From assembly GCA_017511645.1 (NCBI GenBank), contig JAFWJH010000002.1, positions 1-46,675 of the forward strand: a stretch of DNA of 46,675 nt. Reading direction: 5' to 3'. Position numbers and translations under genes: made by a program. How positions within the stretch are numbered: the first letter of the stretch is position 1; every line of letters begins with the position of its first letter. Shown here one piece after another: positions 19,761 to 42,699 of the stretch. The notes under the pieces are model-generated. The model saw only the letters and a program-made list of their open reading frames with translations, was not told where the DNA came from and did no database searches. This DNA comes from Candidatus Saccharimonadota bacterium. GTDB taxonomy: Bacteria > Patescibacteriota > Saccharimonadia > Saccharimonadales > Saccharimonadaceae.

Positions 19761-21531
19761 TTATCAGCACCTAGTTGCCAACCCTGTCGCCTCTATGCCA
19801 CGACGGATTAAGATTTTGAAAAATGTTGTATTGATTGCGCTGACGATTATCGCGGTGCGGCTATTTTTTATCCAAATTATCGAGCATGATGCTTGGGTAG
19901 CCAAAGCCGACGAGCAACACACCTTGCTCGAAACTATTGTAGCCAAGCGCGGCGAAATCTACATGATGGACCAAGGCGAGCCAGTCGCGGTAGCGTTGAA
20001 TCACACTACTTATCAAATTATTATCGACCCAGCCGTTACTGACAAAGACGGCATTAAACATGCACTCGAAACTTATGCTAAAGATTATATTACTGCCAAT
20101 CTTGATGAAGTGTATAATTCTGAGGGTTTGCGTTATTCCATCGTCGCCAAGAATGTCCCGCGTGATACGGCTAACAAAATCGCCGAAGAAAATCTTTCCG
20201 CCGTATGGTTTCAAAAAAACAATCAGCGTGTTTACCCAGAAGGCGAGATGGCCTCCGGCCTACTTGGTTTTGTTAACGCCGACGGTCTTGGCCAATACGG
20301 TGTCGAGGGGTCGCTAAACAACCTACTTTCTGGTAAAGACGGCTTACTTAAAGCTACCGCTGATGTCAACAAAGTAGCGCTCTCTATTGGCAACGACAAT
20401 GTCCGCATCCCAGCCGAAGACGGCAAGAATGTCGTCTTATCAGTGGACCGTGGCCTAGAAAAGGGAATTGAAGATTTGGCGATGGATGCTATCAATTCGA
20501 CTCGGGCTACCAATGCCGCCGCTCTTATTATGGATCCTAACACTGGCGAAGTCATCGCTATGGCGAATTTACCAAACTACGACCCAGCTAATTACGGCGC
20601 CGTCAAGGACGCCTCCGCCTATATCAATAACGTCACTGAAGTTCCTTACGAGCCGGCCTCGATTTGTAAAAGCTTTGCTTTTTCGGCGGCGATTAATGAG
20701 GGTGTTATGACTGCTGAAACCACCTACTTTAACCAAGGCTACGAAATTGTCGATGGCTGGAAAATCCAAAACGCCGAGCAGCGCTCGTCTATTTATGGCA
20801 CCATCGATATGCGCACCGCGCTTTATTGGTCGCTTAATACTGGCTCGATTTACGCACTGAAACTCTTAGGTGGCAACCCCAGCGCTATCACTCAGCAAGG
20901 CCGCGAAAAACTTTACGATTATTATTATAATAAGTTTCGGCTTGGCCAGGCTACCAATATCGAATTAATTGAAGCTGAAGGTTACATTCCTGATCCTAAT
21001 GAGGGATGGGGCCGTGATTCGGTTTATGCTAACATGACTTTCGGCCAGAACCTCGGCATCACTATGATTCAAACTGCCACTGCTTTTTCTGCTGTTATAA
21101 ATGGTGGCACTTACCGTACTCCAACTATCGTTAAGGGTACTCTCGAAAACAGCGAAATTATCGAAAAAGAGCCAGAAAACATAATCGAAGACAAGATTTT
21201 ATCCGACGACACCAGCGCCGCTATGCGCGAGATGCTAATCCACAACCGTAATTACAAAGTGCGCGGCGGTATCGATAAACCCGGCTATGCTATTGGCGGC
21301 AAATCTGGCACCGCTCAGGTGGTGCGTGACGGCGCCTATGACGACACTTATGCAGAGCTAGTCGGCTCATACATCGGCTTTATCGGCCCGGAGGGGGAGT
21401 TGCCAAAATATGTGATAATGGTTAAAATGTGGGGAGAGGGGCAAAGTATTGATAGCGGCGAAGCTATGAATCTATTTGACAAGATTTCTAACTACACGAT
21501 TAATTATTTAAAGATAAAACCAAAGGTATAA
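19750..21531 (+). CDS. ftsI: Division-type penicillin-binding protein (FtsI/PBP2 transpeptidase)
   Basis: About 593 residues from ATG 19750, which overlaps the ftsL stop by 11 nt; an upstream TTG start would add 12 residues. A short cytoplasmic tail and membrane helix (about 18-42) precede the PBP dimerisation domain and the transpeptidase domain. Active-site motifs are SICK (SxxK, about 304), SLN (SxN, about 361) and KSG (KTG-type, about 517). It cross-links septal peptidoglycan with FtsW. No PASTA repeats. The stop codon lies inside the -10 box of mraY. Confidence 0.93.
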   Translation: MRTNYQHLVANPVASMPRRIKILKNVVLIALTIIAVRLFFIQIIEHDAWVAKADEQHTLLETIVAKRGEIYMMDQGEPVAVALNHTTYQIIIDPAVTDKDGIKHALETYAKDYITANLDEVYNSEGLRYSIVAKNVPRDTANKIAEENLSAVWFQKNNQRVYPEGEMASGLLGFVNADGLGQYGVEGSLNNLLSGKDGLLKATADVNKVALSIGNDNVRIPAEDGKNVVLSVDRGLEKGIEDLAMDAINSTRATNAAALIMDPNTGEVIAMANLPNYDPANYGAVKDASAYINNVTEVPYEPASICKSFAFSAAINEGVMTAETTYFNQGYEIVDGWKIQNAEQRSSIYGTIDMRTALYWSLNTGSIYALKLLGGNPSAITQQGREKLYDYYYNKFRLGQATNIELIEAEGYIPDPNEGWGRDSVYANMTFGQNLGITMIQTATAFSAVINGGTYRTPTIVKGTLENSEIIEKEPENIIEDKILSDDTSAAMREMLIHNRNYKVRGGIDKPGYAIGGKSGTAQVVRDGAYDDTYAELVGSYIGFIGPEGELPKYVIMVKMWGEGQSIDSGEAMNLFDKISNYTINYLKIKPKV

Positions 21532-21532
21532 T
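21527..21532 (+). promoter_or_regulatory. -10 box of mraY, overlapping the ftsI stop (leaderless)
   Basis: TATAAT at 21527-21532 contains the ftsI TAA (21529-21531) and ends six bases before ATG 21539. It lacks the TGn extension found at most other promoters here. Confidence 0.55.
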
Positions 21533-21538
21533 AAATAT

Positions 21539-22564
21539 ATGGGTGAAATAAACGAAGAAGTATTTTATGGACTATTGCTAGCAGTGGCGGGGTTTTTGTT
21601 TGCTATGTTTTTGACCCCGATTTACACGCACTTTGCCTATAAATACAAGTTCTGGAAAAAACAAAAACAAACCACAGTAGATGGCAAAGCTTTGCCCATT
21701 ATGACCAAACTTCACGCGCATAAGTTTAAACGTGTCTTTCCAACTATGGCTGGGCTAGTTGGCGTAATTTCTGTCACTGCTGTTACCTGGATTTTCAACT
21801 TAGATCGTGGGCAGACTTGGTTACCACTGGTTGGTTTCTTGGGCGGGGCATTAGTTGGCGTGATTGATGATGTAATTAATATTTTTGGCTCAGGGCGTGG
21901 CGCTGCTGGCTTGCGCGGTCCGGTAAAGTTTTTCTTAATTTCCGTAGTAGGGTTGGCGCTCGGTTGGTTCTTTGCCGCTAAACTTGGCTGGATTACTATT
22001 TTAGTTCCGTTTGTCGGCAATTTTGAAGTTGGCATTTTCTGGATGATTTTGATTTTTGCCTTTGCAGTAGTTGCCACAGCCAATGCTGTCAATATCACCG
22101 ATGGTCTTGACGGCCTCTCCGGTGGTCTCGCTATGATGGCCTACGGCGCTTTTGGCGTCATTGCTCTGTTTCAGGGTAATATTATGCTGTTTGGCTTTTG
22201 TCTTACCGTAGTCGGCTGGCTGCTTAGCTACATTTGGTTTAATGTACCACCAGCTCGTTTTATGATGGGCGACACTGGCTCGTTTGCGCTGGGCGCAGGG
22301 CTCGGCGTGGTTGCCATGATGACTAACTCATTTTTACTACTACCAATTATCGGCTTGCCATTTGTGGTGGAGACGGGCTCTAGTTTGATTCAGTTAACAT
22401 CCAAAAAATTATTCCACAAAAAAGTCTTCATTTCTGCGCCGCTTCATCATCATCTCGAAGCCAAAGGCTGGGGTGAGGCCAAGATTGTAATGCGGTTTTG
22501 GATCGTGGCGGGAGTTTGTGCTATTCTCGGTATCTTTATCGCGGCTACCGGAGGCGCTATTTGA
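21539..22564 (+). CDS. mraY: Phospho-N-acetylmuramoyl-pentapeptide-transferase
   Basis: 341 residues with about ten membrane helices. Signature parts: GVIDDVINI (DDxxN metal site), NAVNITDGLDGLSGG, MGDTGSFALG, and the C-terminal HHHLEAKGWGE. It transfers phospho-MurNAc-pentapeptide to undecaprenyl phosphate to make lipid I, the substrate of MurG three genes on. Its TGA stop overlaps the ftsW ATG (TGATG). Confidence 0.96.
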   Translation: MGEINEEVFYGLLLAVAGFLFAMFLTPIYTHFAYKYKFWKKQKQTTVDGKALPIMTKLHAHKFKRVFPTMAGLVGVISVTAVTWIFNLDRGQTWLPLVGFLGGALVGVIDDVINIFGSGRGAAGLRGPVKFFLISVVGLALGWFFAAKLGWITILVPFVGNFEVGIFWMILIFAFAVVATANAVNITDGLDGLSGGLAMMAYGAFGVIALFQGNIMLFGFCLTVVGWLLSYIWFNVPPARFMMGDTGSFALGAGLGVVAMMTNSFLLLPIIGLPFVVETGSSLIQLTSKKLFHKKVFISAPLHHHLEAKGWGEAKIVMRFWIVAGVCAILGIFIAATGGAI

Positions 22565-23796
22565 TGTCAATCATTCGCAAACACAAATCCGACCTGGTGA
22601 TTTTATTTGCCACATTAGGCTTAATGGCGCTAGGTCTTATCGTAATTTATGCCATTGGTCCCATGCGCGCCAATGTCTTAAACAATACCTACGGCACCGA
22701 TTACGACTCAAACTTCTTTTTCATCGGGCAGTTGCGCTCGGTTGGTTTGTCGCTTCTCGCATTTTTTGCTGCGTTTAAATGGATACCATACAAATACATC
22801 AAAAAATTTGCTAAACCTCTGATGATTGCTGCGCTAGTATTATCAGGCCTACTTTGGATCTTGTCTATGGTTGGCTCGTCACTCGTCAAATGTGAACTCG
22901 GCGAATGTCGGTGGTTTAATTTTGGCGGGCTAAGTTTTCAGCCAGCCGAGTTTTTGAAACTCGCCATGGTAATATATCTGGCTGATTTTCTTGCCCGCAA
23001 AAGGGAAGAAGGCAATATTGGTAAATGGCAAGAGTTTTGGTTGCCACTTTCTATTGTCTGTGGTTTGTCGCTTTTTTTGGTGGTAATCGCTCAGGGCGAT
23101 CTAGGTACCGGTGTAGCGCTAATCGCAATTATCTTTGGCATGCTTTTGATTGCTGGCGTGCCAGCTCGACAGTATCTCATTATGCTAGCCCTGGTTCTTG
23201 CCGTAGCTGTCGGCTCGGTGGCGACTTCTTCGCACCGCATGGAACGTGTCGACGCCTGGCTCACTACTCTTACTGGCGGCGAAAGTACCGACTCTACTTA
23301 TCATGTCGAAAACGCCATGCTCGCTATCGGCACTGGTGGTATGTTTGGCGTAGGGGTAGGGAACTCTGTCCAGGCTACCGGTTATTTACCCGAGTCTATT
23401 AATGACTCTGTCTTTGCAATTATGGGCGAAACTTTTGGTTTTGTCGGGCTATTCTTGATTATTGCTATCTTCGGCGTGATTTTGTTGCGCATGCTAAAAG
23501 TCGCCGAACACACTGCCGAGTCTAACGATCGTCTTCTGGTCGTGGGAGTATTTTCTTGGACACTTGCGCAGGTAGTGGTAAATATTATGGCCATGACTAG
23601 CCTCGTGCCGGTCACCGGCATTACTCTACCGCTACTCTCTTATGGCGGCACCAGCATGGTCTTTATTGCTTTTGCTATTGGTGAAGTTTGTCAACTTTCA
23701 TGTTATACTAGTAGAGAGGTAAATACAAATGAAGATATTAGTAGTAGGCGGGGGATCGGGGGGTCACGTCACTCCGGCAGTCGCCGTAGTTCGTGA
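22564..23796 (+). CDS. ftsW: Lipid II polymerase / division protein FtsW
   Basis: About 410 residues from ATG 22564 (MSIIRKHKSDLVILF), coupled to mraY by TGATG. A SEDS-family membrane protein with about ten helices: WFNFGGLSFQPAEFLKLAMVIYLADFLA, AQGDLGTGVALIAI, and the conserved end PLLSYGGTSMV. It polymerises glycan strands together with FtsI. Unusually, the reading frame continues 68 nt into murG, giving a hydrophilic Arg/Ser-rich tail (about 35 residues) that is the out-of-frame reading of the MurG N-terminus. Confidence 0.93.
   Translation: MSIIRKHKSDLVILFATLGLMALGLIVIYAIGPMRANVLNNTYGTDYDSNFFFIGQLRSVGLSLLAFFAAFKWIPYKYIKKFAKPLMIAALVLSGLLWILSMVGSSLVKCELGECRWFNFGGLSFQPAEFLKLAMVIYLADFLARKREEGNIGKWQEFWLPLSIVCGLSLFLVVIAQGDLGTGVALIAIIFGMLLIAGVPARQYLIMLALVLAVAVGSVATSSHRMERVDAWLTTLTGGESTDSTYHVENAMLAIGTGGMFGVGVGNSVQATGYLPESINDSVFAIMGETFGFVGLFLIIAIFGVILLRMLKVAEHTAESNDRLLVVGVFSWTLAQVVVNIMAMTSLVPVTGITLPLLSYGGTSMVFIAFAIGEVCQLSCYTSREVNTNEDISSRRGIGGSRHSGSRRSS
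23704..23709 (+). promoter_or_regulatory. Possible internal promoter of murG
   Basis: TGTTATACT inside the ftsW coding end, followed by GAGAGGT and ATG 23729. It may allow separate transcription of murG and the ftsQ-like gene. Confidence 0.4.
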
Positions 23797-24964
23797 GATT
23801 TTACAGCAAAAACCCCGAGCCGAAATTGAGTTCTGGACGGATTTTAAATATTACAAAAATGTTACCAAACTTACCACCGAAATCGGTGTATCTTGGGGCG
23901 ACGAAATCAAAGCCACTCACCGTGGTCGTGGCCCATATATCCGTGTCCGTCGCATCTTAGCGGGCAAATTTCACCGTTATTCCAATTGGCATCTTCGCGA
24001 TTATTTTGTGCATCTAGATATCACTTTGAAAGATTTTATTTTTGGCAATATTATGGGCTTTCTCGGTTTTATCGGCGGCATTGTGACGGCTTTTTGTCGC
24101 TTGGCTCGCAAATCTTCACGCCCCAATGTGATCTTTCTAAAAGGCGGCTATGTTTGTTTGCCAGTAGGTCTTATCGCGCGACTATTTCGCATCCCCTATA
24201 TTATTCACGAGTCTGATGTCGTAGCGGGCCTTGCCAACCGTGCTTTGATGCGTCGTGCGAAGAAAGTTGCTTTTGGTATGCCGATCCCTGAAGAGATGCA
24301 AGAAAAGCACCCTAACTATGTTTGGACTGGTATTCCAGTAGGTCCAGAGTTTAAAGCTGTTTCACCCGCTAAGCAGCTTTCACTCAAAAAAGCCTTTTCT
24401 TTTAATCCTGAGAAACCTCTCGTAGTTATCACCGGCGGCTCACAAGGCTCCGAAAATCTCAACGAGACTACCCGTCAGATTTTACCAGAGTTGCTCAAAT
24501 TCACTTCAGTTGGGCTAGTAGCAGGGCGTAAACATTACGAAGATATGATCGACCTCAAAAAATATGAAAATTGGGAAAAAGCTAATCTCGAGTCTAACTT
24601 CCGGATGTGGGAGTTCAACACTACTATGAATGAACTTATGGGTGCTGCTGATGTGGTAGTGTCGCGTGCCGGTGCTACTACTATTGCCGAAATGGCCGCA
24701 TTGAAAAAGGCTACTATTCTAGTACCGTTCGAACGCCTCCCCGGTGGCCATCAAGTCAAAAACGCCGAGCGTCTCAAGGCTACTAACGCTGCCGCCGTGG
24801 TCAATGATTCTGTCATGATGGAACATCCCGATAAGTTGCTCGAAGAAATTCGCCATCTCGTCAAGTCCCCACGCCTCCGTGCTGACATGGCTGATAGTTT
24901 AGCCAAAGAAGCCAGGTCTGACGCCGCAAAACGCCTAGCCGAGATAATCCTAGAGGAAGCCTAA
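23729..24964 (+). CDS. murG: UDP-GlcNAc:lipid I N-acetylglucosaminyltransferase
   Basis: 411 residues, GT-B fold. The N-terminal lipid-binding loop GGGSGGHVTPAVAV, then HESDVVAGLANR, VVITGGSQGSENLN, and the UDP-sugar site SRAGATTIAEMAALKKATILVPF are all standard. It is longer than E. coli MurG (355) because of insertions after the first strand, including a basic region (about 60-110). It makes lipid II for FtsW. GAGAGGT upstream fixes the start. Confidence 0.95.
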   Translation: MKILVVGGGSGGHVTPAVAVVREILQQKPRAEIEFWTDFKYYKNVTKLTTEIGVSWGDEIKATHRGRGPYIRVRRILAGKFHRYSNWHLRDYFVHLDITLKDFIFGNIMGFLGFIGGIVTAFCRLARKSSRPNVIFLKGGYVCLPVGLIARLFRIPYIIHESDVVAGLANRALMRRAKKVAFGMPIPEEMQEKHPNYVWTGIPVGPEFKAVSPAKQLSLKKAFSFNPEKPLVVITGGSQGSENLNETTRQILPELLKFTSVGLVAGRKHYEDMIDLKKYENWEKANLESNFRMWEFNTTMNELMGAADVVVSRAGATTIAEMAALKKATILVPFERLPGGHQVKNAERLKATNAAAVVNDSVMMEHPDKLLEEIRHLVKSPRLRADMADSLAKEARSDAAKRLAEIILEEA

Positions 24965-25618: not shown

Positions 25619-25705
25619 AGCAAAATAGGTCATACATTTTGCAGTAGTCTTTGATAGGCTATATTAAAAACAATATAAAATAACACAAAAACAAAGGTCA
25701 TACAT
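25619..25705 (+). promoter_or_regulatory. Leader with a duplicated 11-mer, one copy in a hairpin loop
   Basis: AGGTCATACAT occurs at 25627-25637 and again at 25695-25705, where its last bases are part of the start codon. The first copy is mostly displayed in the loop of GCAAAAT/ATTTTGC. A second hairpin TATATT/AATATA lies between. The AGGT in each copy could be a Shine-Dalgarno mimic. Confidence 0.45.
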
Positions 25706-27947
25706 GTTTTTGAATAAACGGCATTTTTATGCTAACGGTTTTTCAATCTCTTCGTTAGCACTGTTAAGGCGTCATTTATTTTGGTTGCCCATATTATCGT
25801 TAATTACTATTATTTTTGTATTTTTACTTGGGCCGTCGATTATATTAAGTCGTACCTCTGCTGCAGGAGAGCCTGAAGCGCCGGTACCAGTAGGCTTGCC
25901 TACTCTTTCTCTATCTATTTCAGACGGCGCAAACGACATTTCACTAGACATAGCCCCAATTAACCCTAATGGTACTTTTAGGACTTCCGACACTACCAAC
26001 AATAACATCGAGGTTAGCACTACTAACTATACTGGCTACACTCTAGGTATAACTGCCTCAGTGGATGGTGACAACGCTCTGTCTTACACTCCGACCGGCG
26101 GTACTACTTCAACTATTCCATCTATCACATCTTCCGTTTCAGCTTCTGACTACGCAGATGATGCATATGCAGAAAACAATCACCTAAACAATACTTGGGG
26201 CTACAGGCCAAGCACTTTATATGATTCTATTAATGATACAAATGTCTCAAATACAGACTATATGCCAGCCCCCGCTAGCACCATAGACCAAGTAGCCATC
26301 GCTAAAACCGATAGTGCCACTACTCCTTCAGTTCCAGACGGCTACAATATAGCTATCGGCGCTAGGGTAGATAGCAATACAGTGCCAGGCAATTACGCCA
26401 ACACCTTTGTTATCACCGCTACTACTAATTTAGTGCCATACAGCATTACTTACAATCAAAATGCTACAGACACTGTAATGAGCATGCCAAATCCTAACCC
26501 ACAGACAGGTAATGCAGATACTACCACCAATACCGTCGCCTTAGCTAGTGCCCCAACTAGATCTGGCTACACCTTTAGAGGTTGGTGCACAGTCCAAGTA
26601 GCGGATGATGCAGCCTGTACTGGCACTGAATATGCCGCTGGTGCAAACTACGACATAGACTATACTACTGGCAATAATACTTTTACTTTGTATGCTAGGT
26701 GGAGCCAGCCAACTATTTATGATGAAGTAATAGCAGAATGGACGACTGGTGGCTCTAGAGTACAAACCAATGATACAGATGAAAACACTGGTATCCAAGC
26801 TACCATCACCACAGCTAATTCAGGAGTATTTAAATACAATTCTGCTACTGATGCTTTTGGCGCAGATAGTGATAACACTAAGCCAGATGGTGCCAAAGCA
26901 GATATTTATTACTTCCGTGGCATATTGGATAGCAACCTAAGCGGCACTAGTGACGATAGTAGCTATGGTTCTATGGGTGATGGTGTAACTTGGCCAAACT
27001 ATGTTAGACTAGGTGACACTTGCTGGAGAATAGTCAGAACTACCGCCAGTGGCGGTGTAAAGATGGTCTATAATGGCTTATATTCTACTGGTACTACAGC
27101 TAATTCTTGTGCAAATGCTACTGATAATGCTCAGATTACTACTTCGCCATTTAATAATGGTTCTGCTACAGTATCTGGTAAGAGCTATACTGGCCTACAA
27201 TACCAAAACATCCACGCCGTAGGCTATACATATAGCTCACTCGCAGCTAGCACTACTACCGCCAAAACAGTGAGCACCATCTTTGGCGCTACTGGTAACG
27301 ATACAACTACCAACACTAATCCATCAATTATTAAACAATTTATAGAAGATTGGTATTCTACCAATCTATCATCATATACTAACATCTTAGAACCAAATGC
27401 TGGTTATTGCAATGATCGTACCTTGAACAGCGGTACTTCTTGGACTACTCCGCTTGGGGACTCTGCTACTATAGTTCCATATGGTACCAGTAATCTAACT
27501 CAATACTACTTTGGATCGTATATTAGGAACACGACAACAACTAACCCTCCAACGCTCAACTGTCCTCGTGGCATAGTAGATATTTATAGTACTACTACAA
27601 GCAACGACAAGAACAACGGCAACGGCCAACTCACTTATCCAATTGCTCTTCTTACAGCAGATGAAGTAAGCTTTGCTGGGTCTGGTAAATCTACTGCATC
27701 TCAAGGTTCCGCCTACCACGCTAATTCTTACCTGCGTTCTGGTAGCTATTTCTGGCTGCTTTCGCCTACTACCCGTTACTCGAACGGTTACGCTTTCGAG
27801 TTCGCCTTGACCTCGGATGGCTACCTGGGCTACAACCGCGTGAACCGCACGTACGGGGTGCGCCCGGCCATTTCACTTAATAACAATACCACAATTAAAT
27901 CTGGCAATGGCACTGCGGTGAGCCCATGGGTGGTAGATGCACCGTAG
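25704..27947 (+). CDS. Large secreted surface protein with InlB-type repeat and probable DGR variable C-terminus
   Basis: 747 residues. A basic N-terminus and hydrophobic segment (about 28-50) form a long signal peptide ending near SRTSAA. Next comes a Thr/Asn/Ser-rich beta region (about 60-245). One Listeria/Bacteroides InlB-type repeat (about 250-335) has YNQNATDTV, PTRSGYTFRGW and FTLYARW. The C-terminal domain (about 390-745) has CWRIVRT, SYLRSGSYFWLLSP and a closing TYGVRPAISL, like lectin-fold DUF6273/FISUMP-type ends. Codon composition of the last about 50 residues switches to C/G-ending codons. A likely role is contact with a host cell. The start lies in the repeated AGGTCATACATG element. 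Confidence 0.75.
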   Translation: MFLNKRHFYANGFSISSLALLRRHLFWLPILSLITIIFVFLLGPSIILSRTSAAGEPEAPVPVGLPTLSLSISDGANDISLDIAPINPNGTFRTSDTTNNNIEVSTTNYTGYTLGITASVDGDNALSYTPTGGTTSTIPSITSSVSASDYADDAYAENNHLNNTWGYRPSTLYDSINDTNVSNTDYMPAPASTIDQVAIAKTDSATTPSVPDGYNIAIGARVDSNTVPGNYANTFVITATTNLVPYSITYNQNATDTVMSMPNPNPQTGNADTTTNTVALASAPTRSGYTFRGWCTVQVADDAACTGTEYAAGANYDIDYTTGNNTFTLYARWSQPTIYDEVIAEWTTGGSRVQTNDTDENTGIQATITTANSGVFKYNSATDAFGADSDNTKPDGAKADIYYFRGILDSNLSGTSDDSSYGSMGDGVTWPNYVRLGDTCWRIVRTTASGGVKMVYNGLYSTGTTANSCANATDNAQITTSPFNNGSATVSGKSYTGLQYQNIHAVGYTYSSLAASTTTAKTVSTIFGATGNDTTTNTNPSIIKQFIEDWYSTNLSSYTNILEPNAGYCNDRTLNSGTSWTTPLGDSATIVPYGTSNLTQYYFGSYIRNTTTTNPPTLNCPRGIVDIYSTTTSNDKNNGNGQLTYPIALLTADEVSFAGSGKSTASQGSAYHANSYLRSGSYFWLLSPTTRYSNGYAFEFALTSDGYLGYNRVNRTYGVRPAISLNNNTTIKSGNGTAVSPWVVDAP
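27728..27878 (+). repeat. Candidate DGR variable region 2
   Basis: Encodes from SYLRSGSYFWLLSP to YGVRPAISL. Codons at exposed positions are cgt, tcg, ggt, ttc, gcc, ggc, cgc and acg, in a protein whose body favours AT-rich act/aat/tct codons. The 3' end (ggggtgcgcccggcc) contains no A. The pattern NRVNRTYGVRP fits a template NNVNNTYGVRP after A-directed change of AAC to CGC. No template repeat is present in the window. Weaker case than region 1. Confidence 0.45.
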
Positions 27948-28400
27948 TTAACAATAGATTCTTGGAACAGGGAATTGTTCGGTTTTTGTTCTAGTTGTGA
28001 TAATTCCAACAATTCTCTTCCCTTGTTCGGTTTTTGTTCGGAAAAGAACAAGGTAAAATACATCAAAGGGAACTAAAACCTCTCCGCAAACAGGGAAAAT
28101 ACAAAATAGGGAAATAAACATAGGGAATTGTCAAATCGGCAAATTTGCCCAAAAATCCGCAAAAACTCCTTAAAATCGGCTTAGTCGATAGATAGCTAAT
28201 CATAAATCTATTCCATGAATATAAATAGATTTAGGCTGTTGTATTTTTCATCAAAATCTTAGTCATGTAAACGCCCTCGAGTATTTTATAACACCATTTA
28301 GCGTCACTATAGAGTGGAGTGAGAATATGGATTATGGAGCAATTCTCCGTTCGCCAGAATTATTTCTCCATTTTACACGATAACTTAACCGTCTGATAAA
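27948..28400. other. Non-coding region left of the dif-like site, rich in AGGGAA and GTTCGG motifs
   Basis: No gene is seen. Five plus-oriented AGGGAA copies (27969, 28067, 28092, 28108, 28122) and one reversed copy (28018) lie within 160 bp. Two copies of TTGTTCGGTTTTTGTTC (about 27977 and 28023) are present; the second forms the CCTTGTTC/GAACAAGG inverted repeat (28021-28053), a plausible terminator or protein site for the upstream gene. Confidence 0.6.
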
Positions 28401-28448
28401 CATAACCTTAATGTCCTAAAAGGTATATTGTACGACATTAAGGTTATG
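28401..28448. other. dif: dif-like chromosome dimer resolution site (candidate)
   Basis: Perfect 15-bp inverted repeat: CATAACCTTAATGTC (28401-28415) and GACATTAAGGTTATG (28434-28448). The centre can be read as a XerC/XerD site: ATGTCCTAAAA - GGTATA - TTGTACGACAT (28411-28438), arms of 11 with a 6-bp spacer. The arms are inverted copies at 9 of 11 positions. By eye it matches B. subtilis dif at 17 of 28 positions, including TCCTA and TATATT. No T run follows, which argues against a terminator. It sits where gene orientation and AGGGAA polarity both switch. Confidence 0.55.
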
Positions 28449-28580
28449 GTAAAAAGCCGATTGCGAGTGCGTCCATTTTTTATTCATATTTTTATATTTC
28501 ACCAAAAATCTGGGCTTTTTGAATTTTTTAATTCTCTGCCCAGATTTATCATTAAGTTCTAGCGATGATTAGTGTTTTGA
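28449..28580. other. Short spacer right of the dif-like site
   Basis: AT-rich, no gene seen. It includes the 3' flank of the minus-strand VirD4/TraD-like gene and T-rich stretches; no strong terminator hairpin is obvious. Confidence 0.4.
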
Positions 28581-31500
28581 TTAGTGCTTGATCGACAAAA
28601 ACCCATCTACCGAGTTGTCTTTCTCGGCGAAATCCTCTGTGTGTTTAACAGGGGCAGACAGGGGTAGAGAATCATGTGATGGCTTTATTTCTACGGTTGA
28701 TTTCTCCTGATATTCCACCTCCGGTTTTATAGAGGTAACAGAGGGAACTACAGGGGTAGATTTTGCTGATCGATCAGGTTTTTCGCTCCGCTTCTTTCCT
28801 TTTTTTGCATTCTTGCCGCGGGCTTTGTTGCCGTTTTTCCCTTTCTTTGTCGCTGGCGTAGGTTTTTGCTCAGTGTCATTTCCCTGGTTCTCATTAACTA
28901 ATTTTGCTAGATCCTTTAATCCCATCCGCTCTTTGCCTTCGGCGGTATTTGGGCTAATATTTTGCCGGCGAAAATCAGTCTGCAGCGACGTGCTCTTGTA
29001 TCTTAAGTTCGGTTTTTGTTCGGTAGAAAAATTAGGGCCTTTGGTTCGGATATCAGTAGAAAACTCCTTATTCTCGCGCGTTACTGGCTTAAACACTGGC
29101 TGACTTTTACTATCTATCACCAGCTTGGGCTCTTGGCGGCCCGAATCTGATAGATTCTTTTTATATTTCTCGGATTGCTCAATCGTCTCGCGAATTTCTG
29201 CCTCTACCTCTAATCTTGGCCGAGCATAATTCTCGCGCGACCAAGCTACAATATCATCAAAATTATCTTTCGGCGTATCAGGGATAGAAAGCGTAGTGGC
29301 TGAGAAGGCCGGCACTTTCTCACCGTTGATGATCATTGATATCACAAAGTGGCGGTTGTTGAGCTGGATAATATCAGACTCCTCAAAAGTCGGCTCAAAT
29401 TGCTTGACCAGCACTGGCGCATCATCTGCTGATACCCGGAAGCTAATCGTAGTACCAACGTTGCCAAACACCGCATCGCGCACGCTATCGGTCATCTGAG
29501 CTACATATTGGTTGGCAACTGTCAGATTTAGGCCGTATTTGCGCGCCTCAGATAAAATCACCGCAAACGAATCTGTCGCAAAGTTCTGAAACTCGTCTAC
29601 ATAGAGATAAAACGGTCGCCGATCCGCTACATCTGGGATATCCGAACGCGACATTGCAGCCAACTGAACCTTGGTTACGAGGAACGCCCCCAGTATGCCA
29701 GCGTTATCTTCGCCAATTAGGCCTTTTGATAAGTTTACTACCAAAATCTTGCCTTCATCCATAATCTTGCGGATGTCAAATGACGATTTTGGCTGGCCGA
29801 TAATATTGCGAATAATCGGGTTAGCAGTAAAAGCACCTACCTTATTGAGCACTGGCGCGATCGACTCGTTGACTTGTTTTTCGTTCCACTGGCCGAACTC
29901 GTGCTTCCAGAACTGCAATACCGTCACATCTTTACAATATTCCAAAGTCTCTTTACGAAACTCCTTGTCCGTCAAAAGCCGCGAGATATCCAATAAAGTC
30001 GTCTCTGGTCGGTCTAGTAGTGCTAGCAGGGTATAACGCAGAATATGCTCTAGTCTAGGGCCCCACGAATCGCCGAACATCCTTTTTAGTACGCCAATTA
30101 CTTCAGAACAAATGTTCGGCTTGCGTGACGGATCGGTGATCTCGAGCGGGTTAAACGCCACTGGAAATGCCGTGTCGGCCGGGTTAAAATACACTACATC
30201 TTTTACCCGCGACTCTGGCACAAAACGTAGATTGTCAATCGCAAAATCTCCGTGCGGATCGATAATACAGTAACCCTGATTATAAAATACGTCGGATAGC
30301 GCCATTAACTCGAGTAAGCCACTTTTCCCTGCTCCAGTCTGGCCAATAATATACACGTGGCGCGAACGGTCGCGGCGCAGCAAGCCAAACTGATGATTGA
30401 TCCCCCGGAAATTGGTTAGCCCAAAAGCGGAAATGTTTTCATCCGTAGCGGTGTCGCCAGTAAGTACTGGTAATTTAGCCGGTGGTTCAGCCGTCTTTGA
30501 AGAAGCCCATACAATATTTGGCGTCTCTACCGAAGTGTGGGGCAGATGATACACGGAAGCCAGCTCGGAAATATTCAGGATGAACCCACGACTAGAAAAT
30601 TGTCGCATTTTGTAAGAGTCTAGATCTGTTGGATTAAAGCTGCCGCCGATCTGCTTAAATCCGTTTAGGTTAGTAGAGTTAAATTGTTTAAATGTCCCTA
30701 CTAACGCCTGCATATTGAGCTTAGCATCAGTCTGGTTTTGGCCCAGGTAAGCCAGGCGGATTTTTACCTCGTAGCCTAGCTTGGTAGCTTTTTCTTCGGC
30801 CTTAGCGATCCGAGTCTTGTCGCGCTCAGATAACTCTATCTTAGTATCAGAATTGGTCCCCCCAGCCGGTGGGCGAAATAGCGCACCTAGTATTTCTACT
30901 AGCCAAGTCCAATCTATCCCAGTGCCGCCAAAGAGTGACTTTTTGCCTGATTTGACTTTCCGCACCCAGCGATCTGTAGTATTTTTATGCCAATCATCTG
31001 GAATCGGTCGTGCCAAAATTTGCACCCACATTTCTTCTGAATGCTCTGGGTCAAGCTTGGCCAAAGTCCCAGTGATGCCAGCCAGCGGGTCTACCTCAAA
31101 ACTATCAAAAGTTTTGATCGGTAAAGCCTCGTTCTCGGTAAGAGACAGTTCGGTAGAATAGCTTACTGGATATTTAGTGCGCGCATCGACGTAATCTTCG
31201 TTCATCTTGTAGATCTGTACCGTCGGGTATTGTGAATAAATCTGCCCTTCAACAAAACTCTGTAATACTTTTGGCACCCATACGTAAAATCGTATTTGCC
31301 CAGATGTCGATACAATTTCAAACGACAAATGTTCTTGTACGCCGCCGCTGTTTTTTAATTCCCTTTTGTCACGAAGAATACCGTGCAACGAAGCGAATAA
31401 CTGCTCGGCCGCGAGCTCTTGCTTGTCATTGGTACGCGGAATCTCTAGCATTAGCAACACCGAGTCGACATTCAAAACTTTTAATTGATTCAACTTCTTA

Positions 31501-31586
31501 TAATTACGATAAGTTAAAAACGCCAAAACACCCACCACGGGAATCCAAAATATCGGCATTAAAATAAAATGTATGACTTGTTCCAT
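28581..31586 (-). CDS. VirD4/TraD-like (HerA-FtsK superfamily) membrane ATPase
   Basis: 1001 residues. An N-terminal membrane helix (about 4-26), a soluble domain (about 30-390), then an ATPase core: Walker A GQTGAGKSG (about 412), DPHGDFAID, and Walker B FYLYVDEFQNF (about 658), followed by SEARKYGLNLTVANQYVAQM, the TraD/VirD4 coupling-protein pattern. The last 200 residues are Lys/Glu/Pro-rich and disordered. It could pump DNA or protein through the envelope; in CPR such ATPases occur without a full type IV secretion set. No VirB gene is beside it. The -10 (TAAAAT) is six bases from the ATG. It is the first gene right of the dif-like site. Confidence 0.75.
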   Translation of the reverse strand: MEQVIHFILMPIFWIPVVGVLAFLTYRNYKKLNQLKVLNVDSVLLMLEIPRTNDKQELAAEQLFASLHGILRDKRELKNSGGVQEHLSFEIVSTSGQIRFYVWVPKVLQSFVEGQIYSQYPTVQIYKMNEDYVDARTKYPVSYSTELSLTENEALPIKTFDSFEVDPLAGITGTLAKLDPEHSEEMWVQILARPIPDDWHKNTTDRWVRKVKSGKKSLFGGTGIDWTWLVEILGALFRPPAGGTNSDTKIELSERDKTRIAKAEEKATKLGYEVKIRLAYLGQNQTDAKLNMQALVGTFKQFNSTNLNGFKQIGGSFNPTDLDSYKMRQFSSRGFILNISELASVYHLPHTSVETPNIVWASSKTAEPPAKLPVLTGDTATDENISAFGLTNFRGINHQFGLLRRDRSRHVYIIGQTGAGKSGLLELMALSDVFYNQGYCIIDPHGDFAIDNLRFVPESRVKDVVYFNPADTAFPVAFNPLEITDPSRKPNICSEVIGVLKRMFGDSWGPRLEHILRYTLLALLDRPETTLLDISRLLTDKEFRKETLEYCKDVTVLQFWKHEFGQWNEKQVNESIAPVLNKVGAFTANPIIRNIIGQPKSSFDIRKIMDEGKILVVNLSKGLIGEDNAGILGAFLVTKVQLAAMSRSDIPDVADRRPFYLYVDEFQNFATDSFAVILSEARKYGLNLTVANQYVAQMTDSVRDAVFGNVGTTISFRVSADDAPVLVKQFEPTFEESDIIQLNNRHFVISMIINGEKVPAFSATTLSIPDTPKDNFDDIVAWSRENYARPRLEVEAEIRETIEQSEKYKKNLSDSGRQEPKLVIDSKSQPVFKPVTRENKEFSTDIRTKGPNFSTEQKPNLRYKSTSLQTDFRRQNISPNTAEGKERMGLKDLAKLVNENQGNDTEQKPTPATKKGKNGNKARGKNAKKGKKRSEKPDRSAKSTPVVPSVTSIKPEVEYQEKSTVEIKPSHDSLPLSAPVKHTEDFAEKDNSVDGFLSIKH

Positions 31587-31592
31587 AAAACT

Positions 31593-31598
31593 ATTTTA
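31593..31598 (-). promoter_or_regulatory. -10 box of the VirD4/TraD-like gene (leaderless)
   Basis: TAAAAT on the minus strand, ending six bases before ATG 31586. Confidence 0.5.
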
Positions 31599-31605
31599 TC
31601 ATATA

Positions 31606-32634
31606 TTAAGCTAGGGTATAAGAGTTCTTGCTAATTTTTTTAAACAAGGTTTTGTTCTGTAAATTCAGAAGAATAGTGGTCTCTTTTACTTTACGCACTT
31701 TCAGTACTTGCTTTACGATCTCCTCGCGCGACAAAGGCTGTTCAGACTTCTCGAGAATAGACTTAATAATATCAGAGATAGTCCCCTTCTTATAACCCCA
31801 GCTACTCAGCGCGTAGATTCCACGCCCGATTAGTACAAATCTATCGTCCTTTATCAATTCGTTGTGGATTGCCTGGATTGTAACATTTTTGCGTTTGAAG
31901 TTAGATGAAGATATTTCTTTGGCGATCTCAGAAAAATGCATCGGCTCTTTTTTAGTTTCTAAAATTACGAATATTTTGTCACGAATGTTCTTCGGGTTTA
32001 CGGATGGCCATTTTGCCAAGCCCCACAACCCGTTTAAGGTAGCAAGCAGTTTAGAAATTGACGCTACGGCCTTAATATAGTCTGGGTGCTCATAATTTAG
32101 CTTATTGTCAAGCTCGTCTATGCTCATCGGCTTTTTATTCTCTTTGACCACCTTCACTACTTCGTCGACCTTCTCGCGAATCGCTTTGCTGTCACCGTAT
32201 TCGGCGATTCCTACAGCTGCATAATAACGGTCATTTTCTTCCACTACAGCAAGACTTTTTGAAAAAGTCGCAATAAAATAAATGCCAGTCTTTTCAGGTG
32301 TGGTAGTATCCCTACCATATACTTTATCAGCAAGGTCAGAAATCTTTGCCACACGGCCCATTTCAGTAAGATTACGAATCAATATTTTTTCAGCAGCGGC
32401 TAACTCCGGTATCTGGTTCTCCTCAGCGGAAATTTGGAGACGGATAAGAATTGCTTTTTCAAGCTGGCGAACGCGTTCTCTAGTAATTGACAACATTTCG
32501 CCAATTTGTTCAAGAGTTTCTTTAGAGCCGGTCAGCCCGAAGCGGCGTGAAATGATTTCTTTTTCACGGTCTTGTTCGATAATTCTTAGACTGCCGGATA
32601 TTGCATTTTTGAGGATTTCCGCATTTTGGTCCAT
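31606..32634 (-). CDS. Sigma70 region-4 / HARE-HTH fusion protein
   Basis: 342 residues. The N-terminus (about 22-62) is a sigma region-4-like helix-turn-helix: REKEIISRRFGL...TLEQIGEMLSITRERVRQLEKAIL. A winged-helix region follows, then HARE-HTH-type repeats (about 165-215, 225-275 and 285-342), as in RpoE (delta) of Firmicutes: KKPMSIDELDNKL, KEPMHFSEIAKEI...NVTIQAIHNELIKDDRFVLIGRGIYALSSW and EQPLSREEIVKQVLK. There is no region 2, so it cannot be a full sigma factor. It probably binds RNA polymerase or promoter DNA (inference). The ribosome-binding site AAGGAAA and a clear promoter lie upstream. Confidence 0.75.
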   Translation of the reverse strand: MDQNAEILKNAISGSLRIIEQDREKEIISRRFGLTGSKETLEQIGEMLSITRERVRQLEKAILIRLQISAEENQIPELAAAEKILIRNLTEMGRVAKISDLADKVYGRDTTTPEKTGIYFIATFSKSLAVVEENDRYYAAVGIAEYGDSKAIREKVDEVVKVVKENKKPMSIDELDNKLNYEHPDYIKAVASISKLLATLNGLWGLAKWPSVNPKNIRDKIFVILETKKEPMHFSEIAKEISSSNFKRKNVTIQAIHNELIKDDRFVLIGRGIYALSSWGYKKGTISDIIKSILEKSEQPLSREEIVKQVLKVRKVKETTILLNLQNKTLFKKISKNSYTLA

Positions 32635-32681
32635 CAGTATATTTCCTTATCCCACTACTGTTAATATTGTTAATTTTACTT

Positions 32682-32710
32682 ATAATATCATAGTTTTCAC
32701 GTAATGTCAA
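32682..32710 (-). promoter_or_regulatory. Promoter of the sigma4-HARE gene
   Basis: TTGACA (complement 32705-32710), a 17-nt spacer and TATTAT (complement 32682-32687). One of the few -35/-10 promoters here with a consensus -35. Confidence 0.7.
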
Positions 32711-32809
32711 CTATAGATTCTATAATTACTAAGTACTATTGTAGCACATTTTTTACATTTTTGAAAAAAAATGTAAAAACATAAACATTATACCGAAACT
32801 TGAGTAAGA

Positions 32810-35800
32810 TTAATTGGTTTTTACCTTCTCATCCCCCACCAATTCTTTTAACTTTCCTAGCAAATCATCCGATACTTCTACCTTAAACGGCATTCTAAGC
32901 GGCCGTTTTCGTTCCCCGTCTTTTAGCACCAACACTACCTCTTGGAAGCCTGGGTTTAAATCTGCCAGTCGACGTATGGCGCTTAGGGTTTCCATATCAT
33001 CAGGATTCTCGATCAAGATATACAACCTCTCTTTGCGTGGGTCTTTGGGTGGTTCTTTTAGTACGCGTGGTGCATCTATCGTCGGAGAAACATTACGCGC
33101 TTCATTCGCGCCACTACCTCTGTTATACACCCGTTCGGCTGAAGTCTTCCCTCGCCTCCGGTTATTGCTTGTTGCCGGCGCCGGCGCAGCTAATTTAGTG
33201 CCGGTAGATTGATAATTTTCCAAAATATCATCCGATACCAGCTCTATCGTCTCAGCCAATATCTTTACATCAGAGGTCACATTGCCATCTTTATCGGTGG
33301 CATTGACTTTACCCTGCACCCTCACTACATTGTCTACCTCTAACTTCCCACCATATTCTGCAAAAGTACTCGGAAACACGATAAACTCTGTCTCGTCCGA
33401 CTTGTTTTCAATCTTTACAAAGGCCATCTTGTCGCCTTTTTTAGTCAAAATTGTCCGTACCGCCGTGATGATACCTCCAATTGTTACCATGCGATTATTG
33501 TTTTCGGCTGTAATTAGGCTCATCGGGTGGGTCTGCTCTTCAAAATAGGTGTCATACTTATCCAGCGGGTGTGCCGAGAGATATAATCCCATTAGATCGC
33601 GTTCCCAAAGTAACTGCTCTTTTTCTGGGTGCTGTACCGGCGCTGTTTTAATTTCTACTTCCGGCACCGCTCCAGCTTCACCCATCATGCCAAAGAGGTC
33701 GGTTTGCCCAGAGCCTAAATCTTTTTGGATTTTAGATCCATAAGCTTGTATTGCCTCGAGATTAAACAATAAATCTGATCTAGAGGCCCCAAATCTATCG
33801 AACGCCCCAGTTTTGATCGCTGCTTCCCACGATTTTTTGTTAAACTTGGTGCTATCCACACGCTTAGCAAAATCACAGATCGATTTAAACGGTCCATTTT
33901 TATCGCGCTCGGGAATTACAATATCTTCCACAAGAGATTTACCCATACTCTTGATGCCAGACAAGCCAAACCGAATTGTCTTCTCCCCACCTACAATGCC
34001 AAAATCACCGTAAGATTGGTTAATATCTGGCCCAAGCACCTTTAGTCCCATGCGCTTACATTCTGACATCTCTATTGCTAAGCGGTCCGTCCAACGCATA
34101 TCTGCTGTCATTAGTGCCGCCATAAAAGCATCTGGGTAATGTGCTTTGAGATATGCTGTCCAGTAAGCAATCAGGGCATAGCACGCCGCGTGAGACTTAT
34201 TAAAGCAGTAGTTAGCAAATTCGAGCAATTGCTCCCAAAAAGTCTCGGCGATTTCCTTAGTGGCGCCACCTTTTGTGATCGCCCCTTCGATAAATTTCGG
34301 CTTCAATTTCTTCATCAAATCTACCTTTTTCTTCCCCACCGCCTTACGCAAAGTATCCGATTCGCCACCAGTAAATCCACACCATTCCCTAGAAATCTGC
34401 ATGAACTGCTCTTGGTAAATCATAATACCATAAGTGCTCTTGAGTGAGTTCTCGAGACCTGGGTGCAGATAAGTGATTGGTTCTTCGCCGTGTTTTCGCC
34501 GAATAAAAGAATCGATAAACTGCATCGGACCCGGACGATACAAAGCTACCATAGCGATAATATCTTCAAATGACGACGCTTTTAGATCTTTCAGGTATCG
34601 CTTCATACCAGCAGATTCTAGTTGGAACACACCGGTAGTCTCGGCTCGCTGCAAAAGCGCGTAAGTCTCGGGGTCGTCTAGCGGTAGAGATGACAAGTCT
34701 ATATCATTATTATAGACTTTACGTATCATCCTGAGTGCATTATTAATCACCGATAGGTTGGATAACCCCAAAAAATCCATTTTAAGTAGCCCTAGCTCTT
34801 CCACTTGTCCCATTGGGAATTGTGCCGCAATTGGTCCTTTGGCTGATACCTCTAGTGGCAAAAATTTCACTAAATCATCCGGCGCAATGATCACCCCACA
34901 GGCGTGTACACCGTGGTTGCGAATAGTCCCCTCCAGTCGCGAAGCAAAATCTATTACTTCTTTGGCGGTAGGGTTAGTTTCATACTCTTGTTTCAAATCT
35001 GGTACGTCACGAATAGCGTCGGCTAGATGTACATGGTGACCCATCACCGGGTCTGGCACCATCTTAGCCAACCGATCTGCCTCAGCATACGGCACCTCTA
35101 GTACCCGCGCCACATCGCGCACTGCGTTTTTGGCCATCATTTTACCAAAGGTCGCAATATTAGATACTCTATCATGCCCGTATTTATTACTACAATACTC
35201 AATTACCTCATCTCGTCTAGTATCCTGGATATCAGTATCGATATCTGGCATAGAAATACGATCTGGGTTTAAGAATCTCTCAAAAAGTAGATCATACTTT
35301 AGTGGATCTAGTTCGGTAATACGAAGCGCATAAGCGAGAATAGACCCAGCTGCCGATCCACGTCCAGGTCCATACACGATTCGCTGCGACTTACCCCAGT
35401 TAATAAAATCTTGCACGATTAAGAAATATCCGTTGTAGCCCATTTTGTCTACCACAGATAACTCATAATCGATACGCGGTAGAATCTGATGTGCTTCGTC
35501 ACGTTCCTTATCTACCTTTTCCAAAATATCGCGGCATTTTTTTACAGTCAGGTCTGTAACTTCTTTGAGTTTTTTACCACCATATCTGTAAACCAGCCCC
35601 CGGAATACTAGTTTATCTAGGTAAGTTTTTTCGTCTTCCCCCTCTGGTACCGGAAACTTTGGGATCAAGATTCGCCCTAGTTGCAAGTCTACATTACATC
35701 TATCTGCGATCCGTTTAGTATTTCTTACCGCCTCTGGGCAAGTGTCTTGCCAGTGTTCAATAATCTCGGTTGCTGGGATCACATGTAAATCATAATCTTT

Positions 35801-36553
35801 TAATGTCATGCGATTTGTGTCAGATAGATTTGCCGCCGTGCCAATACAAAGCAGCACCTCATGCGCGTCTTGATCTTCTTTAGTAAGATAGTGTGCATCA
35901 CACGTCACTACTAGTGGCAGGCCTAACTCGTCTGCATGCGCCATTAGCCAATCATTTACGCGTTTTTGTTCGGCCGAATGAGTAGTAGATTTTGGATGGC
36001 CATGGTCCTGCATCTCTAGATAAAAGCGATCTTTAAATACATTGCGATACCAATCTATTAGCTCATAGGCGCGCTTATCATCTCCGGCACGAATTGCTTC
36101 CGAGATCTCTGACCCCATACAGCCAGACAAACAAATAATTCCTTCGCTGTATTTTTCTAATTCGTCGTGGTCGGTGCGAGGCTTATAGTATTTACCATAT
36201 TCCTCGGCATTGCTCATGATCCGGCAGAGATTTTCAAATCCCTTATTATTCATAGCGATTAATGTAATATGAAACCGCTGTTTATCATGCGCGGGATCTT
36301 TGTCGGTCAATTTGCGTGCGGCAACATAGGCCTCTAACCCAAGTAGGGGTTTGATGCCTGCTGCGTTGCATTCTTTGTAGAGCTCTACCAATCCAGACAT
36401 GGTGCCGTGGTCAGTTACAGCCACAGCCTCCATGCCCTGTTCTTTAACATACTTTACAAGTTCTGGAACTTTAGTTAGCCCATCTAGCAGCGAATAATGC
36501 GTGTGATTATGCAGGTGTACAAAATCACTCGGTTTTAGCTGCGTTTTAGGCAT
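32810..36553 (-). CDS. dnaE: DNA polymerase III alpha subunit
   Basis: 1247 residues. The PHP domain comes first (HLHNHTHYSLLDG about 13-25, VTDHGTMSG), then the polymerase core with GPGRGSAAGS and the catalytic PDIDTDIQD (about 434), YQEQFMQI, and helix-hairpin-helix and OB domains at the C-terminus (VTIGGIITAVRTILTKKGDKMAFVKIEN). It is the replicative polymerase of the DnaE1 type. The C-terminal about 120 residues include a variable linker and a small domain. The start overlaps the upstream YtxH-like gene by 8 nt, so dnaE is translated from a three-gene operon. Confidence 0.97.
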   Translation of the reverse strand: MPKTQLKPSDFVHLHNHTHYSLLDGLTKVPELVKYVKEQGMEAVAVTDHGTMSGLVELYKECNAAGIKPLLGLEAYVAARKLTDKDPAHDKQRFHITLIAMNNKGFENLCRIMSNAEEYGKYYKPRTDHDELEKYSEGIICLSGCMGSEISEAIRAGDDKRAYELIDWYRNVFKDRFYLEMQDHGHPKSTTHSAEQKRVNDWLMAHADELGLPLVVTCDAHYLTKEDQDAHEVLLCIGTAANLSDTNRMTLKDYDLHVIPATEIIEHWQDTCPEAVRNTKRIADRCNVDLQLGRILIPKFPVPEGEDEKTYLDKLVFRGLVYRYGGKKLKEVTDLTVKKCRDILEKVDKERDEAHQILPRIDYELSVVDKMGYNGYFLIVQDFINWGKSQRIVYGPGRGSAAGSILAYALRITELDPLKYDLLFERFLNPDRISMPDIDTDIQDTRRDEVIEYCSNKYGHDRVSNIATFGKMMAKNAVRDVARVLEVPYAEADRLAKMVPDPVMGHHVHLADAIRDVPDLKQEYETNPTAKEVIDFASRLEGTIRNHGVHACGVIIAPDDLVKFLPLEVSAKGPIAAQFPMGQVEELGLLKMDFLGLSNLSVINNALRMIRKVYNNDIDLSSLPLDDPETYALLQRAETTGVFQLESAGMKRYLKDLKASSFEDIIAMVALYRPGPMQFIDSFIRRKHGEEPITYLHPGLENSLKSTYGIMIYQEQFMQISREWCGFTGGESDTLRKAVGKKKVDLMKKLKPKFIEGAITKGGATKEIAETFWEQLLEFANYCFNKSHAACYALIAYWTAYLKAHYPDAFMAALMTADMRWTDRLAIEMSECKRMGLKVLGPDINQSYGDFGIVGGEKTIRFGLSGIKSMGKSLVEDIVIPERDKNGPFKSICDFAKRVDSTKFNKKSWEAAIKTGAFDRFGASRSDLLFNLEAIQAYGSKIQKDLGSGQTDLFGMMGEAGAVPEVEIKTAPVQHPEKEQLLWERDLMGLYLSAHPLDKYDTYFEEQTHPMSLITAENNNRMVTIGGIITAVRTILTKKGDKMAFVKIENKSDETEFIVFPSTFAEYGGKLEVDNVVRVQGKVNATDKDGNVTSDVKILAETIELVSDDILENYQSTGTKLAAPAPATSNNRRRGKTSAERVYNRGSGANEARNVSPTIDAPRVLKEPPKDPRKERLYILIENPDDMETLSAIRRLADLNPGFQEVVLVLKDGERKRPLRMPFKVEVSDDLLGKLKELVGDEKVKTN

Positions 36554-36929
36554 TTTTAATAGTCTTCTCTACTTTTTTAGCGCTGTTTTTTATAGTATTA
36601 CCAACTTTTTTAGCACTAGATTCTACAGTCTTCCCAACCTTTTTAGTCTCTTTTGTAGCAGTTTTTTCTACTTTTTTATTTTCGCTCTCTACTGCCTTAC
36701 TTACTTTTTCAGCCTTATTTTTGACCTCTTCCACCTTATCAGCAGCCTTTTCTTTGACTTCTTCTACTTTTTCGCCTACTTCGTCAAGTTTTTCTTTGAT
36801 TTCACCTTCGTTTTCTTCGACTTTTTTAGAGACAAACTTGCCAGCAATTGCCCCAGCTAGTGCACCGAGCGCTGCACCTAAGAAAAACTTCCCTGTTCCA
36901 CCTTTTTTACACTTATTTTCCTTCGTCAT
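36546..36929 (-). CDS. YtxH-like Lys/Glu-rich coiled-coil protein
   Basis: 127 residues. A Gly/Ala-rich hydrophobic segment (about 13-33, GKFFLGAALGALAGAIAGKFV) is followed by Lys/Glu/Val heptad-like repeats (EKVEEVKEKAADKVEEVKN) and a Lys/Thr-rich tail. This resembles YtxH and apolipoprotein-like stress proteins, probably membrane-associated with a long amphipathic helix. The function is unknown. It lies between a DUF948-like gene (17-nt overlap) and dnaE (8-nt overlap). Confidence 0.7.
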   Translation of the reverse strand: MTKENKCKKGGTGKFFLGAALGALAGAIAGKFVSKKVEENEGEIKEKLDEVGEKVEEVKEKAADKVEEVKNKAEKVSKAVESENKKVEKTATKETKKVGKTVESSAKKVGNTIKNSAKKVEKTIKNA

Positions 36930-37215
36930 TTTTAGTTCCTTCCTTTTTCTCTTTAACTTCTTTAATTTTTTCTTTCAATTTTGGTGTGACATATTTGTCT
37001 ACAAACATCTCCATTGTACCGCCAATCGAGGTCATACCCTTAACATTCGATACAATGCCATTGGTATTTTTAGCAATGTCTTGACCTTCTATTACTACCT
37101 TTTTGACTTCCTTGCTGAGCCCAATTAGTTTAGCTAGTAGTACTATTCCGACAATTAAAAACACTAATAGCGTTAAACTCAGAATAATTACTAGTATCCA
37201 CTCCGCTGTATTCAT
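36913..37215 (-). CDS. DUF948-like small membrane protein
   Basis: 100 residues: an N-terminal membrane helix (about 6-30, WILVIILSLTLLVFLIVGIVLLAKLI), then a helical stretch with Asn/Thr/Gly and a Lys-rich end. The DUF948/YtxH pair is a common tandem in Firmicutes and matches here. GGAGGAAAAGC is the ribosome-binding region, and an extended -10 TGATATAAT lies at complement 37235-37240. First gene of the operon with dnaE. Confidence 0.65.
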   Translation of the reverse strand: MNTAEWILVIILSLTLLVFLIVGIVLLAKLIGLSKEVKKVVIEGQDIAKNTNGIVSNVKGMTSIGGTMEMFVDKYVTPKLKEKIKEVKEKKEGTKNDEGK

Positions 37216-37247
37216 GCTTTTCCTCCTTTACTTTATTATATCACTGA

Positions 37248-38126: not shown

Positions 38127-38148
38127 AATAAGATCTCCTTGAAACCTT

Positions 38149-38154
38149 ATTATA
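38149..38154 (-). promoter_or_regulatory. Extended -10 of galU
   Basis: TGCTATAAT on the minus strand, with AAGGAG (complement 38135-38140) before ATG 38126. Confidence 0.65.
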
Positions 38155-38165
38155 GCATAGTCGAG

Positions 38166-38756: not shown

Positions 38757-38780
38757 AAAAATCCTTTATTACTTATGCCT

Positions 38781-38786
38781 ATTATA
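38781..38786 (-). promoter_or_regulatory. Extended -10 of the HdeD-like gene
   Basis: TGCTATAAT on the minus strand followed by a leader of about 20 nt with an AAGGAT-type ribosome-binding site. Confidence 0.6.
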
Positions 38787-42660: not shown

Positions 42661-42699
42661 TTCTTCCCTCCTTTTTTATTTTGCACCCAAACCTCAAAA

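Follow-up and report, generated by a model that had tools for sequence, protein, structure and literature searches.

In Escherichia coli, residues N1296, R1300, and E1303 of the DNA translocase FtsK have been shown to read the polar guide motif KOPS (PMC2680272, PMC2533119), and R1289 contacts the recombinase XerD (PMC5052618). The FtsK gamma domain and its motif can diverge together, for which Lactococcus offers a precedent (cited in PMC5357621). At the archaeal dif site, HerA has been proposed as a possible FtsK analogue (PMC2958812). For the Saccharibacteria, a widespread group of reduced epibionts, a search of the open literature returned no paper combining "dif site" with the name of the group; a dif and its guide motif therefore appear to be undescribed there.

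We analyzed a window of 46,675 nucleotides, the entire contig C9 of a draft assembly (G000; 523,738 bp, 9 contigs, 77% complete). Its host genus is Candidatus Nanosyncoccus (Saccharibacteria), a tiny symbiotic bacterium, and proteins with the same FtsK C terminus occur in other Saccharibacteria, many of them from ruminant guts. A perfect 15-bp inverted repeat with an 18-bp loop (arms CATAACCTTAATGTC at 28401-28415 and GACATTAAGGTTATG at 28434-28448) lies between convergent open reading frames at 25704-27947 (+) and 28581-31586 (-); its DNA folding z score is -6.4, which none of 200 shuffles equaled. A sequence-only reading had noted this repeat, its place between convergent genes, and the switch of gene orientation from mostly plus to mostly minus, and all three were confirmed (the share of coding sequence on the plus strand drops from 0.74 on one side of the site to 0.15 on the other). 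So did the proposed 11+6+11 split, two inverted ~11-bp arms around a 6-bp core as in a dif site, and a search of the G000 contigs found the site once. The features of what we call dif, on grounds given below, are as follows.

28410-28439, + strand: putative dif site, AATGTCCTAAAA-GGTATA-TTGTACGACATT, single copy in the genome, kept across genus and order
28410-28421, + strand: left arm (AATGTCCTAAAA)
28422-28427, + strand: core (GGTATA)
28428-28439, + strand: right arm (TTGTACGACATT)
28411-28438: 28-bp form of the site
28401-28448, no strand: 15-bp inverted repeat, formed by the outer parts of the dif arms and 9 bp beyond on either side
28387-28394, + strand: left flanking box AACCGTCT; YCGKCT in 23 of 41 genus sites versus 0.4 in shuffled flanks
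28452-28463, + strand: right flanking box AAAAGCCGATTG; AGHCGA in 21 of 41 genus sites versus 0.6 in shuffled flanks

The two arms, AATGTCCTAAAA and AATGTCGTACAA when read in the same sense, are identical at 10 of 12 positions in the window and at 9 of 12 in the consensus; for the dif sites of E. coli and Bacillus subtilis the figure is 6 of 11. A 17-of-28 match to the B. subtilis site had also been offered as support. The count is reproducible, but 12 placements in the window score 17 or more, two of them 19 to 20, so the match is no evidence, and we dropped likeness to B. subtilis or E. coli dif as an argument. The outermost part of the inverted repeat is conserved only partly, with complementarity of 0.4 to 0.8 at most positions more than 15 bp from the center. 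The flanking boxes (AACCGTCT and AAAAGNCGATTG) are mutually inverted and accompany roughly half of the dif sites in the genus; in the flanks inspected from other families of the order they were not obvious. They are possible binding sites for a putative accessory protein.

Conservation of the arms was evaluated with sites found by BLAST, since invariance within the 41 to 42 pattern-selected sites is built into letters that the pattern itself fixes. With a 91-bp query, related sites came up in roughly half of the 60 genus genomes searched; they carried the same arms without selection for arms. A two-arm pattern with a free core and at most 2 mismatches matched 159 of 174 genus genomes, mostly exactly once, and left 15 without a match; its reversed control gave one match. 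At the level of the order, a slightly shorter pattern matched 211 of 241 good genomes, in most cases once, and some of these single matches will be chance because the control of that pattern also yields a few. Across the order the arms are conserved around a variable 6-bp core. The site is single copy and conserved among relatives, as in a dif, and the exceptions inspected are dif-armed repeats in surface-protein genes. Its surroundings are also conserved, with a TraG/HerA-like ATPase gene or a HARE/sigma-r4 gene on one side and murG and ftsW on the other.

28581-31586, - strand: TraG/TrwB/HerA-like DNA-pump ATPase, 1001 aa (Pfam), conserved neighbor of dif
22498-24964, + strand: ftsW and murG of the division/cell-wall cluster (Pfam), conserved neighbors on the other side of dif

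Most members of the genus, and several further families of the order, have the ATPase gene next to dif; murG typically lies 1 to 3 kb from dif across the order, and ftsW/murG remain nearby order-wide. The division/cell-wall cluster in the window extends over 19714-24964 (PBP, glycosyl transferase 4, ftsW, and murG).

The recombination machinery expected to act on such a site is present. G000 encodes one FtsK with a C-terminal gamma winged helix (PF09397, above cut-off) and one tyrosine recombinase (PF00589), the latter on contig C5. This Xer retains all six catalytic residues (R148, K172, H244, R247, H270, and Y279), has Pyrococcus abyssi XerA as its nearest solved structure, and barely passes the curated XerA model (222.7 bits; cut-off, 220); it missed the XerC and XerD equivalog cut-offs, although its raw scores there were higher than for XerA. 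The separate XerC and XerD of a two-recombinase XerCD system were not found in G000. Nor does the gene form an XerS/XerH module, being away from the site and scoring 126 bits for XerS against a cut-off of 267. Because the assembly is 77% complete, a second Xer could be missing from it; among 40 relatives the top-scoring copy recurs in 39, further copies score lower and vary between genomes, and about half have only one Xer, as do about half of the relatives that are >90% complete. A single recombinase suits a site with two near-equal arms, both of which it may bind.

The hexamer AGGGAA behaves as a guide motif converging on the site. It occurs 44 times in the window versus 24 expected (none of 100 shuffles had as many) and flips polarity at the site, from 29+/3- on the left to 1+/11- on the right; the best changepoint, 28742|28837, is ~0.4 kb to the right of the site. 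This flip, which is also that of a dif, and five copies close by on the left were already in the sequence-only reading, and both were confirmed.

948-28747, + strand: left side of the polar AGGGAA array, most copies being on the + strand
28837-45761, - strand: right side of the polar AGGGAA array, copies on the - strand
27969-28127, + strand: dif-proximal AGGGAA cluster, copies at 27969, 28067, 28092, 28108, and 28122 on the + strand and at 28018 on the - strand

The ratio of copies pointing toward dif to copies pointing away is 40:4 in the window; for six further genomes of the genus it is 268:14. Ranked by polarity, AGGGAA comes first among hexamers in 6 of 7 genomes of the genus, the exception being G088, whose right flank is very short. 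Another species, G001, has a 232-kb contig on which AGGGAA is uniform in direction over 195 kb and then reverses between 194,872 and 195,659, a span that includes dif at 195,356. TAGGGAA was mapped in two Nanosyncoccus drafts, G027 and G034; the map of the former is in agreement, although its arms are unequal in length (25:5 on one strand across 449 kb). Elsewhere in G000, a dense AGGGAA cluster on contig C7 (L070 6311-8464) diverges in orientation at ~7.1 kb, a candidate origin-side switch near which no origin genes were recognized by eye.

Conserved arms around a variable core, about one copy per genome, a polarity flip in independent genomes, and intact Xer and FtsK genes bear out the dif reading, and we conclude from these sequence data that the palindrome is, with high probability, the one dif site at which Nanosyncoccus resolves chromosome dimers. 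In the mechanism we propose, the XerA-like recombinase would bind both arms of the two dif sites on a dimeric chromosome. Septal FtsK would load on AGGGAA through its gamma domain and pump DNA dif-ward from both sides, bringing the two sites together, and the recombinase would exchange strands at the 6-bp core; dif would be the point on which FtsK translocation converges. We have considerable confidence in this account as a whole, namely, a chromosomal dif with a XerA-like recombinase on both arms, FtsK pumping guided by AGGGAA, a gamma recognition helix without the KOPS-reading residues of E. coli, and replication forks that need not meet at the site.

The sequence-only reading had also made the site the replication terminus, a claim that our data do not support. 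It is unlikely that forks meet here, even though KOPS-like polarity and gene orientation both flip at the site and a small GC-skew step of the expected direction crosses dif in most genomes. The skew extremum predicted near 28.4 kb is absent, skew being negative on both sides in the window, and neither a change of skew sign nor a location across from the origin, as a terminus would show, was found. Once the coding strand is separated out, 22 of 22 genomes sampled show no change of sign in the strand component of GC3 skew from one side of dif to the other, although gene orientation flips there. Nor is dif opposite dnaA: in five single-contig relatives, taken as complete circles (two lengths are known only as rounded values), the two are 0.27 to 0.32 of the circle apart (about 95 to 115 degrees). 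In the same five, AGGGNAGGG agrees better with a partition at dnaA and dif (66:18) than with one at dnaA and its antipode (49:35), G330 alone being without the signal. In G290, the one genome sampled for whole-chromosome skew, skew becomes positive at dnaA (522 kb) and remains so at 900 kb, beyond dif (807 kb). A closed Saccharibacteria genome has been reported with symmetrical skew (PMC6031116), which suggests a terminus nearer the antipode, and the dif of Thermococcales is likewise off the antipode. Given the dnaA-dif distance and a skew that continues past dif, the skew-based terminus would lie nearer the antipode, with dif displaced from it. That distance and the constant GC3 sign argue for dif as the convergence point of KOPS rather than the meeting point of forks: dif need not be the fork-meeting place, and skew and dnaA position suggest that it is not.

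Less likely still is an origin of the AGGGAA polarity in strand composition or coding bias, with no guide motif involved. Many purine-rich words are polar around dif, as this would predict, but generic ones lose or reverse their direction in genes running away from dif (AAAAAG, 73:133; GAAGAA, 48:73), whereas AGGGAA still points dif-ward in such genes (63:2) and in non-open reading frame DNA (58:6), and we rejected coding bias on this ground. Among the 20 permutations of A3G3, AGGGAA stands at 17:1 and every other at 4.6:1 or below. Its density in the genus also climbs near dif, from 0.5 to 0.8 per kb at 2 to 40 kb to 4.0 per kb within 500 bp.

A perfect 15-bp stem between convergent genes would also suit an RNA hairpin, such as an intrinsic transcription terminator, but we rejected this reading as very improbable because the repeat lacks a T-run, occurs once per genome, and has arms that are conserved order-wide in sequence, beyond mere pairing, and differ from each other at a few positions that are the same in almost every genome. 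Equally hard to credit is an attachment site of a Xer-exploiting mobile element, which extra same-arm sites in some relatives might suggest, since the main site lies in conserved synteny across the order, at the polarity flip and with no inserted element, and no second, better conserved site was found at the flip.

Those extra sites are of interest in themselves. They occur in G032 (nine matches), G070, G074, G109, G021, and others, and every one that was read sits in frame in a gene encoding a Fib_succ_major domain, for which reason insertion elements were rejected for G032, G070, and G074. Some form inverted pairs ~1.3 kb apart, whose core hexamer is identical within a pair and different between pairs.

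L226 (G032 contig C9), 669-698 and 1972-2001: dif-armed inverted pair inside a Fib_succ_major gene
L227 (G032 contig C2), 658 and 2017: dif-armed inverted pair
L231 (G070 contig C19), 127 and 1400: dif-armed inverted pair
L228 and L230: dif-armed repeats at contig ends

In the pair on G032 contig C9, only one of the two members connects with a reading frame upstream, and two G032 contig ends share 140 identical bases from the site onward, preceded by unrelated sequence. This pattern is the trace that site-specific inversion would be expected to leave; two identical cassettes would give the same picture. The repeats are probably Xer-driven inversion switches for surface-protein domains.

The guide motif differs between Nanosyncoccus and its relatives. 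Eleven genomes from other genera and families, the canonical group, have E. coli-like KOPS, GGGNAGGG, as their polar motif (68:5), and the KOPS-reading residues are retained in nearly all members; in Nanosyncoccus the polarity of GGGNAGGG is lost (23:13). Since AGGGAA is itself moderately polar outside the genus (241:42 in the canonical group), the change is a shift of weight among related motifs, not a clean replacement. The gamma domain has changed as well. Its PF09397 E values are 1e-9 to 1e-11 in Nanosyncoccus, against ~1e-20 to 1e-31 for almost every other genus. The fold is kept (AlphaFold model pLDDT, 95; top PDB matches, the FtsK gamma structures 2j5p, 2ve8, and 2ve9), and the recognition helix has gone from GYARAARLIETME in relatives to GHGFVSGLAIWFE, with G, G, and I at the counterparts of N1296, R1300, and E1303 and T at that of R1289. 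The combination of R1300, E1303, and polar GGGNAGGG that defines E. coli-type KOPS reading is not found in Nanosyncoccus. The rewritten helix fits the shift to AGGGAA. Two intermediate genera match the pairing of helix and motif loosely: g36 (helix GHGRAARAVLELE) keeps R1300 and has polar GGGNAGGG (11:0), and g26 (helix GYGKAAAVIDHLE) has A for R1300, nonpolar GGGNAGGG, and AGGGAA at 53:3. That g26 shares AGGGAA polarity despite a helix change different from that of Nanosyncoccus counts against the explanation. G362 (L165-L168) has a diverged helix, GFSRAKRIIMMME, and its top polar hexamers, AGAGGT (29:1) and TGAAGA (59:6), are possibly a further guide motif.

Relatives with an E. coli-like helix keep polar GGGNAGGG, and Nanosyncoccus has neither, which makes the genus a natural experiment in how a protein that reads DNA changes jointly with motifs scattered in their hundreds. 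The displaced dif offers a system for separating replication termination from chromosome dimer resolution. More tentatively, one XerA-like Xer and FtsK may serve a dif uncoupled from forks, the change from GGGNAGGG to AGGGAA may have gone with the rewritten gamma helix, and inversion switches with dif arms, set apart by their cores, may exchange surface-protein domains. If so, different core hexamers would keep the switch sites apart from dif in some species.

Of known systems, E. coli XerCD/dif-FtsK-KOPS shares the 28-bp 11+6+11 architecture, a KOPS-type polarity flip, and the FtsK gamma domain, and its KOPS, GGGNAGGG, is the polar motif in most sampled genera of the order. It differs in having two recombinases and arms identical at 6 of 11 positions, against one recombinase and 10 of 12 in the window; Nanosyncoccus further differs in its motif, AGGGAA, and in the replaced KOPS and Xer contact residues of gamma. 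The Thermococcales XerA/dif system (PMC2958812) has, likewise, a single XerA, near-perfect arms, a 6-bp core, conserved flanks of ~23 bp, polar words peaking at or near dif, and a dif 122 to 142 degrees from oriC. Its arm sequences are different, and the archaea have no FtsK and 4-nt polar words, whereas the system described here has FtsK with gamma and a hexamer or octamer word. The Lactococcus/Streptococcus XerS/difSL system (Nolivos et al. 2012, as related in the review PMC5357621) also combines a diverged gamma domain and guide motif with a single recombinase; as described there, it has another motif, another recombinase family, a 31-bp site, and xerS linked to the site, unlike Nanosyncoccus, whose xer and site are on separate contigs. 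Finally, in Ureaplasma mba/UU172 (PMC3599477), a Xer-type tyrosine recombinase inverts surface-antigen segments at short inverted repeats; those repeats are not dif, whereas the putative switches described here carry dif arms.
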